This document shows, piece by piece, positions 3,367-9,885 of a stretch of DNA of 12,043 nucleotides. The position numbers and the translations under genes were made by a program. Origin of the DNA: Bacillota bacterium (GTDB lineage: Bacteria; Bacillota; Syntrophomonadia; Syntrophomonadales; Syntrophomonadaceae). The notes beneath the pieces are model-generated. The model was not told where the DNA came from. It saw only the letters and a program-made list of their open reading frames with translations, and did no database searches. How positions within the stretch are numbered: the first letter of the stretch is position 1; every line of letters begins with the position of its first letter. The DNA lies in the NCBI GenBank assembly GCA_017861475.1, contig JAGFXV010000180.1:1-12043 (forward strand), given 5' to 3'.

Positions 3367-4602
3367 TTATTCACATTTGTTAATTTTCACCGCAATTTTT
3401 GGAGCTTCAGGCATGACGATGACCCGGGCCTGCTCCCCGTCACGAATGAAAGCATACTGCAAAGCTTCCTCCATTGAATGCACCGGTTTCAGGAACAAAT
3501 CTTCGGCCTGCTGGTCGGTCAGGGAACTTATCAATAGAATTTCAGCCTTTTCCAGGATTCTGCAAATGGCAAAGGCCTTATGACCGCCCAGCTCAAATTG
3601 ACGGTTGAACCTGTCCTTGATATCCTGCGGGCAAGAAGCAGCATCAATCCAATCGGCAAATTTTTCTTCGCCCAGACCTTCTGCACATTCAGCAGCCAGT
3701 ATGATCGTCCCGCCCGGCTTGACAGCCAGAACCGCCGCATCCATCGCTTTTTGCCAGCTGGCAATGACAATATCTGCCGGCGCATCAATCTTCAGCACAC
3801 TCATCTGTTCAGCATATTGAACCGCCTTAAGCCAGGCCGCCTCCACATCCCCACTGACACAACAGGCAATTTCATGGTGACTGTGAAGAACTACATTGAT
3901 GATAAAATCAACTCCAACCTCGCGGGCTGCCTCCAACATCAGATCACTGACTGGATTGTTTTCATAATTGCCCAGACAAGCCTGGGGATCATTCATCATT
4001 TTATGATTGGCTTCGATGGCCGCACGACCTGCAACACCCGGCAGGATAGATTTTCTTCCTCCGGAATAGCCCGCAAAATAATGCAGTCCCACCACTCCGG
4101 TGGTGATCAACAGATCGGCTTCCGCCACGGTACGGTTGATAATCAGTTCCATTCCATTTGATAAATAACCCAAAGATTTGAGATCATTGTCGCAATCATG
4201 ATTGATGATCCGGTATTTGCTGAAAATATCAGCGCCAAAAATAGCCAGGTTGTCTTCCCCAGTATGGGCACGGTGAATACCGGTGGCGATCACCAGTGTG
4301 ATCTCCTGGTCAGAGATACCAGCGTTATTTAGTTCTTTCAACAATGGCGGCAATATCAATTCATACGGTGTGGGACGGGTTATATCATTGACCACGATAA
4401 CTGCATTGCGGGCTTCTTTAGCAGCAATTATTTCCTGCAAGGTTGGACTTTGCACAGGATGAGCCAAAGACTCTTCCACCATCTCTATTCCGCCGCCGGA
4501 GTTCTCGATATGACGTGGTTCCAATATGGCAGCCAGATTTTTATCATCCAACTGCAGTTTTAAATGGCCGTGGCCATAGGCTAATTCGATCACGATCCTC
4601 AA
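3367..4602 (-). CDS. larA: LarA-type (nickel-pincer) lactate/2-hydroxyacid racemase homologue
   Basis: Members of this family (DUF2088 N-terminal domain) racemise or epimerise 2-hydroxyacids using a nickel-pincer nucleotide cofactor. The 411-residue product carries NDITRPTP (Asp73, Arg76), ATGIHRAHTG (His110), GLHYFAGYSGGRKS (His174 and Lys184, the expected cofactor-tethering lysine) and EANHKMM (His200). These match the spacing of Lactiplantibacillus plantarum LarA. Where relatives, as I recall them, have a loop with a GG-P-D-N-YQ pattern, this protein runs straight from DIVIAS into WQKAMDAA (about 277-290). The loop appears absent, so substrate or activity may differ. The start is uncertain: TTG at 4602, or GTG at 4593 with AGG 9 nt upstream. 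It is divergent from glcD/glcF, which suggests a shared hydroxyacid pathway. The cofactor genes larB, larC and larE are not in the window. Confidence 0.85.
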   Translation of the reverse strand: MRIVIELAYGHGHLKLQLDDKNLAAILEPRHIENSGGGIEMVEESLAHPVQSPTLQEIIAAKEARNAVIVVNDITRPTPYELILPPLLKELNNAGISDQEITLVIATGIHRAHTGEDNLAIFGADIFSKYRIINHDCDNDLKSLGYLSNGMELIINRTVAEADLLITTGVVGLHYFAGYSGGRKSILPGVAGRAAIEANHKMMNDPQACLGNYENNPVSDLMLEAAREVGVDFIINVVLHSHHEIACCVSGDVEAAWLKAVQYAEQMSVLKIDAPADIVIASWQKAMDAAVLAVKPGGTIILAAECAEGLGEEKFADWIDAASCPQDIKDRFNRQFELGGHKAFAICRILEKAEILLISSLTDQQAEDLFLKPVHSMEEALQYAFIRDGEQARVIVMPEAPKIAVKINKCE

Positions 4603-4626
4603 CCTGCCGTTTCCCTGTTTTCATAC

Positions 4627-4655
4627 ATTATACCGTAAGTAGTTGCTTATTATAA
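4627..4655 (-). promoter_or_regulatory. Probable promoter of the larA-like gene
   Basis: On the minus strand a perfect TATAAT (4627-4632) lies 24 nt upstream of the TTG start at 4602. A weak -35 candidate TTATAA (4650-4655) sits 17 bp further upstream and matches TTGACA at only three of six positions. The predicted leader is under 20 nt. The left end of the first repeat element begins just beyond, at about 4658, so the element abuts this promoter. Confidence 0.5.
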
Positions 4656-4742
4656 TCTATAACTGTTAGCCTGATCTGAGGTTTATGCATTAATAAATGC
4701 TACTCTACAGTAATAATGACAGTCTATAATTACCTAAATCGT

Positions 4743-4958
4743 AGAGGTTTATGTTTTAGCTTAGCGCCGGGGGAAGGCGGCAGTCGTGCGACTAAACGTA
4801 ACGTGGTAATAATACACGCAGACTTAGCAAAGAAATCCGAACACGGATACTTGATAGTCATTTTTATCAAAGCTTACGAGAAAACAGACGAGCGCTGTTA
4901 AAACAAATTTGTACAGTCAAAAGACCGTACCCCAAGCGGGCTAATGCATAAACCTCAG
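4743..4958 (+). other. Conserved core of element copy 1, possible structured RNA
   Basis: This is the 216-bp unit from R2 through R3. By hand alignment its first 61 nt match the second copy at 53 positions with no gaps, and its last 69 nt (4890-4958) match at 62. The 86 nt between are much more diverged. As RNA, R2 (GAGGTTTATGTTTTAGC) could pair with R3 (GCTAATGCATAAACCTC) in a 17-pair stem with one G-U and one U-U, closing the whole core. Small local dyads inside include AGTC/GACT at 4782-4793 and TTGATA/TATCAA near 4851-4870. Shared sequence landmarks are GGGAAGGCGGCAG, AACGTAACG, GAGCGCT and ACCGTACCCCAAGCGGGC. Transcription and strand are inferred, not shown. Confidence 0.55.
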
Positions 4959-5051
4959 TATAGTCTATCAGTTATATCTTCTAAAGCATTAAGTTCTGCG
5001 AATGATTTAATCCCCAGCGGAATGTCTTTTAACTTTGCCTTGATTACAGGC

Positions 5052-5086
5052 TAATGCATAAACCTCAGTACAACCTATCAGTCTTA
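5052..5086 (-). repeat. R4 repeat unit of copy 1, facing glcD
   Basis: This additional inverted R unit lies about 90 bp beyond R3. Positions 5055-5083, reverse-complemented, match 6628-6656 (R1 of copy 2) at 27 of 29 positions. It resembles that unit more closely than it does R1 of its own element. Together the two units bracket glcD and its promoter as an inverted pair. Confidence 0.8.
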
Positions 5087-5140
5087 TTATTGGGAACCGT
5101 CATGTATACCAAACTTTTCATAAGGATATTTTAGTGATTA

Positions 5141-5149
5141 TGATATAAT
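5141..5149 (+). promoter_or_regulatory. Extended -10 promoter of glcD
   Basis: TGATATAAT is a perfect extended -10 element (TG-N-TATAAT, hexamer at 5144-5149). No good -35 hexamer is seen at the usual distance, which is tolerated with an extended -10. The expected start of transcription is near 5156, about 43 nt before the glcD ATG. It lies between R4 of copy 1 and the gene. Confidence 0.6.
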
Positions 5150-5198
5150 ATCGAAGTAATAAATCAAGTTGATAATTAAGCTTTTAAGGAGTGAAGAT

Positions 5199-6599
5199 AT
5201 GGATTCCGCAGCAATCAGAAAAGAACTGGTCAAAATGCTGGGTAAAGATAAGGTTTTAACGGAACAACTGGACTTGATGTATTATTCCTATGACAGTTCC
5301 TTTTTGACCCAGATGAAGCCAGCCGACCCGTATGCCGTGGTCTTTCCGAAAAGCACCGAAGATGTGCAGCAGATAATGCGTTTTGCCTATGAGAACAATA
5401 TAAATGTCATTCCCCGCGGTGCCGGCACGGGTGAAACCGGGGGATGCATAGCGGTTGAAGGCGGAATCGTTCTGGATCTGTCCACCTGGGATGAGATCGT
5501 TGAAATAGATGCCAAAAACATGCAGGTCATTGTAAGACCGGGCGTTATCCATGCCAAATTAAATGAGGAATTGGAAAAATCCAATCTCTTTTTCCCGCCC
5601 GATCCGGGCAGCAGTCAAATGTGTACGGTAGGCGGCATGGTTGCCAATAACGCCAGCGGATTACGGGCGGTCAAATATGGCACCACCGAGCAATATATAT
5701 TGGGGCTGGAAGTAGTCACCCCCTCCGGCGATATAATTTATACCGGCGGCATAAAAGCCCGCTGCATTAAAAACGTCTCCGGACTCAATCTGACTAAACT
5801 GATGATAGGCTCCGAAGGAGTCCTGGGTGTTGTCACCCAGATCCGTCTGCGGGTCTGGCCCAAACCGAAAGCTCGCGGCATTGCCATGGCAGTATTCGAT
5901 AATCTTGACGATGCACCTGCTACGGTACTGGATATTTACCAGGGCGGCCTGCTGCCGTCCGGGATTGAAATACTGGACAGTTCAGCCATCAAAGCTGTCA
6001 ATGAATTTAAACCGGAAATCAATTTGCCCGATTGTGAAGCCATCCTGCTCTTTGAAGTAGACGGCAATCTTCCCAGCGTAGAATATGAAGGCGAACAGAT
6101 CAAAGAGATCGCCGGACGGAGAGCCCGGGCGGTGGAATGGTCCACAGACAAAAAACGCATGGCGCAATTGTGGGAGGGCCGAAGCGTAACTGCTTCCGCT
6201 GCTTCAAGGGTCAGAGCTGACGGCACCAGAGTATTTGCCGGTGAAGATATCAGCGTCCCCCTGGCCAAAGTTGCAGACACCTTGCGAGCCATTCGCCAAT
6301 TGGCTGACAAACATGGCATTCAGGTGGTTAACTACGGTCATATAGGCGATGGCAATGTTCATACCGCGCCGGTGATCAACCCCGAAGTCCCGGAAGAAGT
6401 GGAAAGAGTGCTCAAGCTGGTCGACGAAATCCATCTGCTGGCGATTGAAATGAATGGTTCGACCACCGGCGAACACGGTGTCGGTGCAGTACGTCGCAAA
6501 TACGCTGAACTGGAGCATGGCCAGGCGGTTGAGTATATGAAGAGAGTTAAAGACGCCTTCGATCCCAAAGGCATCATGAACCCAGGGAAACTGTTTTAA
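5199..6599 (+). CDS. glcD: GlcD/LldD-type FAD subunit of a 2-hydroxyacid (lactate/glycolate) dehydrogenase
   Basis: A 466-residue FAD-linked oxidase predicted to oxidise D-lactate, glycolate or a related 2-hydroxyacid and pass electrons to its iron-sulfur partner. The FAD_binding_4 domain covers about residues 35-215, with RGAGTGETGG (73-82), TVGGMVANNASG (143-154) and GSEGVLG (204-210). The C-terminal FAD-oxidase domain has GHIGDGNVHTAP (380-391) and GEHGVG (424-429), which supply metal and substrate-binding histidines in relatives, and ends in NPGKLF. The frame is open from a TTG at 5169, but the ATG at 5199 is preceded by AAGGAGTG at 5186-5193 and is preferred. It sits between two copies of the repeat element, 448 bp ahead of glcF, an unusually wide gap for this pair. 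It is divergent from the larA-like gene. The substrate cannot be fixed from sequence. Confidence 0.93.
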   Translation: MDSAAIRKELVKMLGKDKVLTEQLDLMYYSYDSSFLTQMKPADPYAVVFPKSTEDVQQIMRFAYENNINVIPRGAGTGETGGCIAVEGGIVLDLSTWDEIVEIDAKNMQVIVRPGVIHAKLNEELEKSNLFFPPDPGSSQMCTVGGMVANNASGLRAVKYGTTEQYILGLEVVTPSGDIIYTGGIKARCIKNVSGLNLTKLMIGSEGVLGVVTQIRLRVWPKPKARGIAMAVFDNLDDAPATVLDIYQGGLLPSGIEILDSSAIKAVNEFKPEINLPDCEAILLFEVDGNLPSVEYEGEQIKEIAGRRARAVEWSTDKKRMAQLWEGRSVTASAASRVRADGTRVFAGEDISVPLAKVADTLRAIRQLADKHGIQVVNYGHIGDGNVHTAPVINPEVPEEVERVLKLVDEIHLLAIEMNGSTTGEHGVGAVRRKYAELEHGQAVEYMKRVKDAFDPKGIMNPGKLF

Positions 6600-6690
6600 T
6601 ACTCAAATCTGAATGCGAGTTAAGGATAACTGAAAGGTTGTACTGAGGTTTATGCAAGACCTTCCCCAACACATCAAACTAACCCTACGC

Positions 6691-6908
6691 AGAGGTTTAT
6701 GTTTTAGTATAGCGCCGAGGGAAGGCGGCAGCCGAGCGCCGGAACGTAACGGCGCCAAGAACGATAACAAACCCAGTAAAGATATACGTTACCCAAAAAC
6801 GAGACTTGCGTATTAGATAAAGACTCCGAGGTAACAAATGAGCGCTAATAATTCAAATTTATAGAGTCAAAAAACCGTACCCCAAGCGGGCTAATGCATA
6901 AACCTCAG
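6691..6908 (+). other. Conserved core of element copy 2, possible structured RNA
   Basis: This 218-bp R2-to-R3 unit is homologous to the core of copy 1 (216 bp). The R2/R3 closing stem is preserved, with slight changes at its inner end. A perfect 6-bp hairpin GCGCCG/CGGCGC with an 8-nt loop occupies 6736-6755. Copy 1 has no equivalent 6-bp stem there, only a shorter dyad slightly upstream. Two copies are too few for a covariation test, so an RNA role remains a hypothesis. Confidence 0.55.
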
Positions 6909-6927
6909 ACTAAGCTTACAATAATAG

Positions 6928-6954
6928 GCAAGTCAAGAACCGTCCCCGACTTGC
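6928..6954 (+). other. Hairpin between R3 and R4 of copy 2
   Basis: GCAAGTC (6928-6934) and GACTTGC (6948-6954) form a perfect 7-bp stem around the loop AAGAACCGTCCCC. There is no T-run after it, so it is not a standard terminator. The loop and stem sequence recall REP-like palindromes I remember from other Firmicutes genomes; that recollection is unverified. The core ends carry a related phrase, AGTCAAAA-A/G-ACCGTACCCC. Confidence 0.55.
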
Positions 6955-7047
6955 GCGACTAGCGAGGTTAATAAATGCATAAACCTCAGACTAAACTTAC
7001 AGTTATAAATATAAATAAGTTACATCCTCCAGGAAGGAAGAATACTG

Positions 7048-9205: not shown

Positions 9206-9826
9206 ATGGAAACGGTTGATAAATTAAAAAAGCGTCCGCGAATGGTGTTTGAATATATTCAAAGTTATTGCAAAGAACATGGTTATCCCCCATCAGTCAG
9301 GGACATCGGCAAGGCAGTCGGTTTAAAATCAAGTTCCACCGTGCATATGTATCTGGTTCAGCTTGAGGAACTGGGATTGATCCGCCGGGACCCGGCCCGC
9401 CCCCGGGCAATTGTCGTCAACGACACTGAAGAAACACCCAACCTGGAAATGAGCATCCGGCAAATTCCGGTAGTGGGCAAAGTCGCTGCCGGCATACCGA
9501 TACTAGCACAGGAAAATATCGAGAATTTCATGGCAGTGCCAGTCGACCTGCTTGGTCAGGGGAATTATTACATATTAAAGGTTCAGGGAGACAGCATGAT
9601 CGATGCCGGTATTTTTAACAATGATTACGTAATCGTTCATGAACAGCGGGATGCATCCAATGGTGAGATCGTGGTAGCAATGCTGGAAGATGAAGCAACT
9701 GTCAAACGTTATTACAAAATGCCTGATCACATCCGCCTGCAGCCGGAAAACAGTGCCATGGAACCGATCATTGCCAAGGAAGTCAGCATTTTAGGCAAAG
9801 TGGCCGGGTTGATGAGAAGAATGTAA
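9206..9826 (+). CDS. lexA: LexA repressor, SOS regulator
   Basis: A 206-residue LexA, close to the 205 of Bacillus subtilis. It represses DNA-damage genes and cleaves itself when RecA filaments form. The N-terminal winged helix (about 1-70) contains PPSVRDIGKAVGLKSSSTVH. The cleavage bond is Ala95-Gly96 in GKVAAGIP. The peptidase dyad is Ser130 in QGDSM and Lys167 in TVKRYY. The frame is open from an upstream ATG at 9170, but that one lies inside the promoter. The ATG at 9206 follows AGGAGGG by 5 nt and is clearly the start. It has its own SOS-type promoter and ends at a strong hairpin terminator, so it is probably monocistronic. Confidence 0.96.
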   Translation: METVDKLKKRPRMVFEYIQSYCKEHGYPPSVRDIGKAVGLKSSSTVHMYLVQLEELGLIRRDPARPRAIVVNDTEETPNLEMSIRQIPVVGKVAAGIPILAQENIENFMAVPVDLLGQGNYYILKVQGDSMIDAGIFNNDYVIVHEQRDASNGEIVVAMLEDEATVKRYYKMPDHIRLQPENSAMEPIIAKEVSILGKVAGLMRRM

Positions 9827-9841
9827 CTACTCACAAATATT

Positions 9842-9873
9842 AAAAGCGGGAACTGCCAGTTCCCGCTTTTTTT
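9842..9873 (+). terminator. Intrinsic terminator between convergent lexA and glnA
   Basis: AAAAGCGGGAACT (9842-9854), loop GCC, then AGTTCCCGCTTTT (9858-9870) gives a perfect 13-bp stem followed by a T-run to 9873. It ends lexA. The A-run on its left side gives a short U-run on the other strand, so it can also serve glnA, which stops at 9886. Confidence 0.92.
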
Positions 9874-9885
9874 ACGTTTATTAAA

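Follow-up and report, generated by a model that had tools for sequence, protein, structure and literature searches.

What are the two similar non-coding blocks that flank glcD in a genome of the Syntrophomonadaceae? They lie in a stretch of 12,043 nucleotides, hereafter the window, which is contig JAGFXV010000180.1 of the GenBank assembly GCA_017861475.1 (contig C192 of the host genome, here G000, which is 2.34 Mb long and 77% complete). The reading that we prefer, with a probability of roughly 55%, is that both blocks represent a new family of mobile repeats in the Syntrophomonadaceae, short, non-autonomous and similar to miniature inverted-repeat transposable elements (MITEs), with a structured RNA of about 150-215 nt as the body of the element. 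As judged against Rfam this is a separate family, and selection appears to maintain its core in the form of a folded RNA.

The cores of the two blocks are found at 4743-4958 (216 bp) and 6691-6908 (218 bp), on one strand and on either side of glcD, and both point along the direction of glcD transcription, one upstream and one downstream of the gene. Alignment confirms the shared orientation and the lengths given in the original prediction, with 161 of 218 aligned columns identical, and a recount of the ends returned the same values that had been obtained by hand, namely 53 matches over the first 61 positions and 62 over the last 69. With copy 1 as a DNA query, copy 2 is found at E 3.7e-31 and further sites in the host genome at E values from 7e-18 to 2e-40; the likeness of the blocks that flank glcD is far from chance. 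The absence of coding capacity also stands, as no open reading frame (ORF) of at least 80 amino acids (aa) overlaps the spacers at 4603-5168 and 6600-7047.

The two copies described originally are real, but they represent only two of 12 matches in the host genome. A BLAST search with copy 1 recovered more copies in G000 and in one of two genomes of the same genus, and the only other match among 60 relatives, 22 bp in G025, was unconfirmed by RNA models. Covariance model R1, which was built from 12 copies of the own genus, matches 12 sites in G000, seven in the sister species G001 and none in G002. A shorter form of about 148 nt is found elsewhere in the family, and this model reaches 10 of 54 genomes overall. 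Covariance model R2, built from 19 short copies (relatives of about 150 nt), is positive in 13 of the 63 genomes of the order, which are also the 63 genomes available at class level: 13 of 54 within the family and none of nine outside it. The carriers recognised by model R2 span eight genera of this one family, with 40 matches in G067, 31 in G007, 13 in G036 and 10 in G005. In a sample of the phylum, five of 398 genomes were positive, all of them within the family (seven candidates per genome were scored among the matches listed), and an exact scan of GTDB species genomes for the 3' motif returned 29 stretches, all titled Syntrophomonas sp. or Syntrophomonadaceae. The initial sequence pattern had no match in genome contigs, and a pattern search of viral contigs also gave none; with blastn, neither one G007 copy against plasmids nor a window copy against phages produced a match. 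With regard to age, 20 dispersed G067 copies have a median identity of 91% (83-96%), as against just 71% for eight G000 copies in alignment A1, and the G000 copies are therefore older.

The RNA core of copy 1 runs from P1 to P1' over 213 nt of the spacer between the larA-like gene and glcD (4744..4956, + strand), as delimited by DNA searches and covariance models; it scores 5.6e-47 with model R1, of which it is one of the 12 building sequences, and 1.4e-7 with model R2, the alignment of which does not contain it. The 215-nt core of copy 2 in the glcD-glcF spacer (6692..6906, + strand) was placed by the covariance models, at 9.8e-52 with model R1, which includes it in its alignment, and at 1.2e-5 with model R2. 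Both are closed by P1, a helix of 16 bp with one mismatch in the own genus. In copy 1 its 5' strand GAGGTTTATGTTTTAG (4744..4759, + strand), identified by pair counts in the own genus and the family, pairs with the 3' strand CTAATGCATAAACCTC (4941..4956, + strand; alignment and pair counts), with T4755 facing T4945, and in copy 2 the strands at 6692..6707 and 6891..6906 (both + strand; alignment and pair counts) pair in the same way. Inside P1 stand CGC/GCG and GGGG/CCCC, followed by AAGGCG on the 5' side and GACCG on the 3' side. In copy 1 the 5' segment (4764..4779, + strand) comprises the 5' strands of P2 (CGC, 4765-4767) and P3 (GGGG, 4769-4772) and the conserved AAGGCG motif, and according to the alignment it is kept in the forms found across the family. 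The alignments likewise identify the conserved 3' motif GACCGTACCCCAAGCG (4923..4938, + strand), which holds the 3' strands of P3 (CCCC, 4930-4933) and P2 (GCG, 4936-4938). These conserved internal motifs are strand-specific and read GCGCAGGGGG(A)TAAAGGCGATT ... TAAGACCGGNCCCAAGCG.

Within the own genus P1 is nearly invariant, with two-sided change in three of 32 pairs (four cells against 0.8 in shuffled alignments). In a family alignment made without structure, two-sided change affects 15 of 25 pairs and 48 cells, against 14.3 in shuffled alignments, and slid controls are far lower than the observed value. Over 94 copies (alignment A3) there are 279 two-sided cells against 73.4 shuffled, the covariation score is 0.404 against 0.140 for shuffled and 0.041-0.116 for slid controls, and the leading pairs in an unguided ranking by mutual information with average product correction belong mostly to P1 and P3. 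The P1 cells that depart from Watson-Crick pairing comprise 73 G.U, 22 A.C and 122 other mismatches; when each cluster is counted once, G.U outnumbers A.C by 43 to 16 (binomial p 0.0003), and by pair position it is favoured at 11 of 16 (p 0.011). A DNA inverted repeat predicts G.U and A.C in equal numbers, and the excess of G.U is explained by RNA pairing of the + strand. Pairing that is kept while the sequence of P1 changes, together with the preference for G.U over A.C, points to selection at the RNA level. The + strand of the window copies folds more stably than dinucleotide shuffles (z -5.1 and -4.1), and in 72 of 93 family copies the + strand is more stable than the - strand. Promoter-like sites (eight against 4.4 in shuffles) and terminator-like sites (five against 2.6 in shuffles) were considered and set aside. 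Covariation beyond both shuffled and slid controls and a strand signal of G.U over A.C, as expected of a structured RNA, are thus found here, the ends forming one helix with strong compensatory change and G.U bias. The original prediction had left the choice between a structured RNA and transposase-recognised ends, and the search for covarying pairs that it proposed as a check came out positive.

The other half of that choice seems true as well, given an element that is dispersed and occupies different positions in different species. The many intergenic copies that the prediction asked for were also found. In G067 all 36 matches examined out of 40 sit between ORFs of at least 80 aa (four partial matches were omitted and tandem copies counted singly), and their orientation relative to the flanking genes is mixed (13, 11, 8 and 4). 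From 94 matches 80 loci were taken, one of which was skipped because of N runs; 78 of the remaining 79 overlap no ORF of at least 90 aa, and the 79th overlaps an unidentified ORF of 144 aa. Head-to-tail tandem arrays with a period of 211 and copies that abut the ends of other copies are both frequent, and nested copies occur. Site occupancy was tested with joined-flank queries for four G067 loci out of eight junctions prepared. The orthologous sites of loci 1 and 4 are element-free in G036, G023 and G065, and those of locus 2 in G023 and G036; locus 3 is element-free in G065, and G023 holds about 100 bp of other sequence there, a reading that leaves out split matches in G036 and G066. Around glcD, the spacer to glcF is 448 bp long in G000, where it holds the element, and measures 119 bp in G001 and 56 bp in G002; both sister species lack the core there, G001 having a different palindrome in its place, and G001 carries an inverted copy between larA and glcD. 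Loss from the relatives could in principle also account for the empty sites, but gain is likelier because the copies occupy different sites in different species. The element is thus short, non-coding, dispersed in multiple copies and variably present at orthologous sites, which are features of a bacterial MITE.

With regard to the insertion sites, at locus 2 the G067 insert, with the ends ACTCAACC...GGTTGAGT, lies between two TA, where G023 and G036 have one. Terminal inverted repeats of 8-10 bp are found outside P1 at locus 2 and in X-type full copies, the left junctions of most of 20 aligned copies of the major subfamily have no such inverted repeat, and TA or TTA is common on both sides of other copies. 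The sequence TTAACTCAAC was considered as a general terminus and rejected, because its exact ends occur at 11 sites in G067 and nine in G036, against control counts of eight and three.

Several observations weigh against the proposal of a mobile repeat with a selected RNA body. Alignment A3 was fitted to the model structure and is biased towards it, the G.U bias was read on this alignment too, and relatedness inflates its counts, the effective number of sequences being about 35. Among the 94 copies the pairs with two-sided change number 19, against 16.6 in shuffled alignments, and 30 of 500 shuffles were as high. The - strand of the window copies also outdoes its shuffles in folding (z -4.1 and -2.1), and just four of 12 own-genus copies have a + strand that folds more stably than the - strand, a result that counts against the window's own copies or at least not for them. 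P2 shows no two-sided change in the own-genus, family or 94-copy alignments, and is supported by conservation only. On the side of mobility, a matched-pair test for target duplication in 28 copies singled out one of 54 offset/length combinations at an unconvincing p of 0.027, and no transposase is found among the 25 commonest Pfam families of the 149 neighbouring proteins.

Some of these points suit the alternative that survives best, although we consider it unlikely, which is that of a pure DNA element: P1 would be the terminal inverted repeat of a MITE, matched to one transposase, and the RNA fold would have no role. The copies are mobile and dispersed, some full copies have the 8-10 bp inverted repeats outside P1 and TA junctions, the comparison of strands in the own genus fits, and the transcripts of bacterial MITEs are highly base-paired in general, according to PMC2229807. 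However, the ratio of 43 G.U to 16 A.C in P1 is not favoured by a DNA palindrome, and the sequence of P1 varies while the inner, non-palindromic motifs are conserved on one strand, which is the reverse of what transposase ends predict.

If the element is indeed a mobile repeat with an RNA body, its DNA would be inserted at TA- or TTA-rich intergenic sites by an enzyme supplied in trans, and transcription through the insert from a neighbouring gene would produce a self-contained folded domain closed by P1. This folded insert could serve as the substrate of a double-strand RNase or as the target of a binding protein, and either event might keep the intergenic insertion tolerable and tune the flanking mRNA. 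In the window, one copy would lie in the leader of a glcD-glcF transcript and the other in the spacer between its two genes.

Known insertion sequences (ISs) were tested through IS630 and TnpB models and through the neighbouring proteins. No partner enzyme was found with the two models, a search that did not extend to IscB, reverse transcriptases or other IS families; the IS630 transposase NF033545 is present in five of the 54 genomes of the family and in none of the 13 carriers. The neighbouring proteins (149 of 154 ORFs, five being omitted) are diverse, with 242 Pfam families, none of which has more than five members, and PADLOC returned nothing recurrent above three members in the 25 families listed. 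Solo right ends at loci L043, L046 and L047 were considered as autonomous copies and rejected, their adjacent ORFs matching NlpC/P60, AIM24 and HhH-GPD. As a separate observation, queuosine genes recur slightly beside the family copies of alignment A4 (Queuosine_synth three and QueH three of the 149 neighbours).

A mobile RNA system of a new kind, with the conserved RNA itself as the active part, would be a bolder reading, and one that we hold to be improbable. The RNA would then either guide an RNA-directed enzyme of unknown type or be catalytic itself, and it would be supplied by dozens of intergenic copies and used by a protein unrecognised by current models.

A still less probable explanation is a guide-RNA cargo, in which an omega-like or HEARO-like scaffold would serve a TnpB/IscB-type nuclease in trans, with flanking host DNA as the guide. 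HEARO, the omega RNA of IscB, is a structured RNA of mobile elements of which ORF-less copies exist, and the likeness lies in a structured RNA inside an ORF-less mobile element. In the G067 subfamily, GTTA or a similar sequence stands at many left junctions. Nevertheless, Rfam at relaxed thresholds, run on the window, on ten loci of the family and on two stretches of the element alone, gave nothing below E 2 on the element, and HEARO is absent from the matches of every one of these searches, so that a link to HEARO or another Rfam family, which the original prediction proposed to check, is not supported. The TnpB domain PF07282 is present in 12 of the 54 genomes, in just four of 13 carriers and in eight of 41 non-carriers (IscB was not searched), and an assignment as a TnpB omega RNA element was rejected, since TnpB accompanies the RNA in so few of the carriers. 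The remaining Rfam candidates were discarded: L20_leader (window 9792-9880) is below its gathering score, Phe_leader and Rp_sR47 lie outside the element in loci L090 and L087, also below theirs, and SNORD75, the plastid ycf3 intron and HrrF match the opposite strand of the element region, with E values of 2-7 and far below their gathering scores.

A catalytic RNA, self-cleaving or self-splicing, with an element that moves via an RNA intermediate, would fit a compact fold in which internal loops are conserved and helix sequences vary, as well as the head-to-tail tandem arrays, and yet appears quite improbable: no ribozyme or intron family of Rfam matches the + strand, the plastid intron match (E 2.7) being on the other strand of R1, and locus 2, with its TA junctions and terminal inverted repeats, suggests insertion as DNA (the enzyme searches did not cover reverse transcriptases). 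A likeness between CCGGNCCCAAGC and twister ribozymes was set aside, as Rfam gave no match. Lastly, a riboswitch or leader RNA that controls the glcD-glcF genes in cis, which the orientation of both window copies upstream and downstream of glcD might suggest, is highly improbable and already contradicted as a general role by copies that adjoin unrelated genes in mixed orientation, by the coreless glcD-glcF spacers of two sister species and by the inverted larA-glcD copy in G001.

Among known systems, NEMIS/Correia, ERIC and RUP are small mobile repeats of the bacterial MITE type with TA termini in most, NEMIS transcripts have been proposed as RNase III targets, and RUP has IS630-Spn1 as its IS partner, as described in PMC2229807. 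The present element resembles them in its size class (about 100-200 bp), non-coding nature, many copies and predicted transcripts forming long stem-loops, and by analogy it may work like NEMIS- or ERIC-type repeats with folding transcripts. Unlike them, it has conserved non-palindromic motifs within a helix that changes by compensation between genera, and unlike RUP it has no IS partner that was found, a sequence relation having been sought just through the Rfam, plasmid and phage searches. The TA at the junctions of locus 2 is shared with IS630-mobilised MITEs, whereas the IS630 transposase is missing from the carriers. Furthermore, the mobile/repeat sequence candidates (MRSC motifs) from a scan for noncoding RNAs in 50 genomes have many copies per genome and inconsistent gene orientation (PMC11109978); copy number and mixed orientation are shared with the element, a comparison made by description only, and the main text of that paper contains no word beginning with Syntrophomon. 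No report of this element was found in the literature, as judged by titles and the openings of abstracts.

Around the window copies, the original prediction had described a layered element, R1 > R2 > core < R3 < R4. R1 of copy 1, then placed at 4658-4692, does end in CTGAGGTTTATGCATTA as claimed, and the inverted pairs R1/R4 are detected mechanically at both sites (I6 84%, I7 84%). The layered arrangement cannot be kept as the architecture of the element, since an inverted right end upstream with an extra right end downstream is found at just these two of 16 own-genus cores; at three others the upstream right end is not inverted (right ends were counted within 160 bp of the core at up to two mismatches per 15 bases). 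R2 and R3 are the element's own two ends, and R1 and R4 are additional right ends that do not belong to its fixed parts. For copy 1, the reversed R1 extends over 4650..4692 (- strand; inverted repeats I2 and I6, DNA search), an extension of the right end after P1, partly common to other right ends, over 4957..4979 (+ strand; repeat family D1, copy flanks), and R4 over 5049..5087 (+ strand; D1, 87%). For copy 2, the reversed R1 is found at 6626..6656 (- strand; D7 and I7) and R4 at 6970..7008 (+ strand; D1, 72%). Between the core of copy 2 and its R4 lies a palindrome similar to repetitive extragenic palindromes, GCAAGTCAAGAACCGTCCCCGACTTGC (6928-6954), and the spacer between glcD and glcF in G001 is filled by a similar one, AACCGTCCCC; these palindromes look like a repeat family of their own.

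Other variants were noted as well. By eye, a second module of the type CACCCTCCGGGTATTAC..ATGTTCSC..ACTATTAAGG is inserted between P1 and P3 in some copies, and in others, across genera, a complement-like stretch of this module replaces the right end; it is found at L032 1421-1694, L041 1503-1764, L191 2024-2206 (G067:C14) and L196 6662-6830 (G036:C6). At L008 1107-1565 (G000:C413), two successive copies have intact ends but an altered interior, the first with a duplication of about 35 nt and the second with a large deletion.

The genes around the copies are ordinary ones: the window encodes a LarA-type nickel racemase and GlcD-like, GlcF/LdhH-like, TtcA-like, LexA, GlnA and MurB proteins; LexA, GlnA and MurB exceed their model cut-offs, and the others score below. 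The product of the racemase gene beside glcD (3367-4602) falls just short of the cut-off of the LarAH6 malate racemase model, with 494.7 bits against 500, and the substrate of the glcD/glcF pair may be a 2-hydroxyacid other than glycolate, for example malate or lactate.

Miniature repeats of bacteria have mostly been described as DNA elements with incidentally folding transcripts. Here, pairing is kept under sequence turnover, with a bias towards G.U, across eight genera, and it is therefore the RNA form that appears to be selected. Whether small mobile repeats harbour functional RNAs thereby becomes a testable question, and the 13 carriers among the 54 genomes of the family provide a clean set for finding a partner protein by presence and absence.

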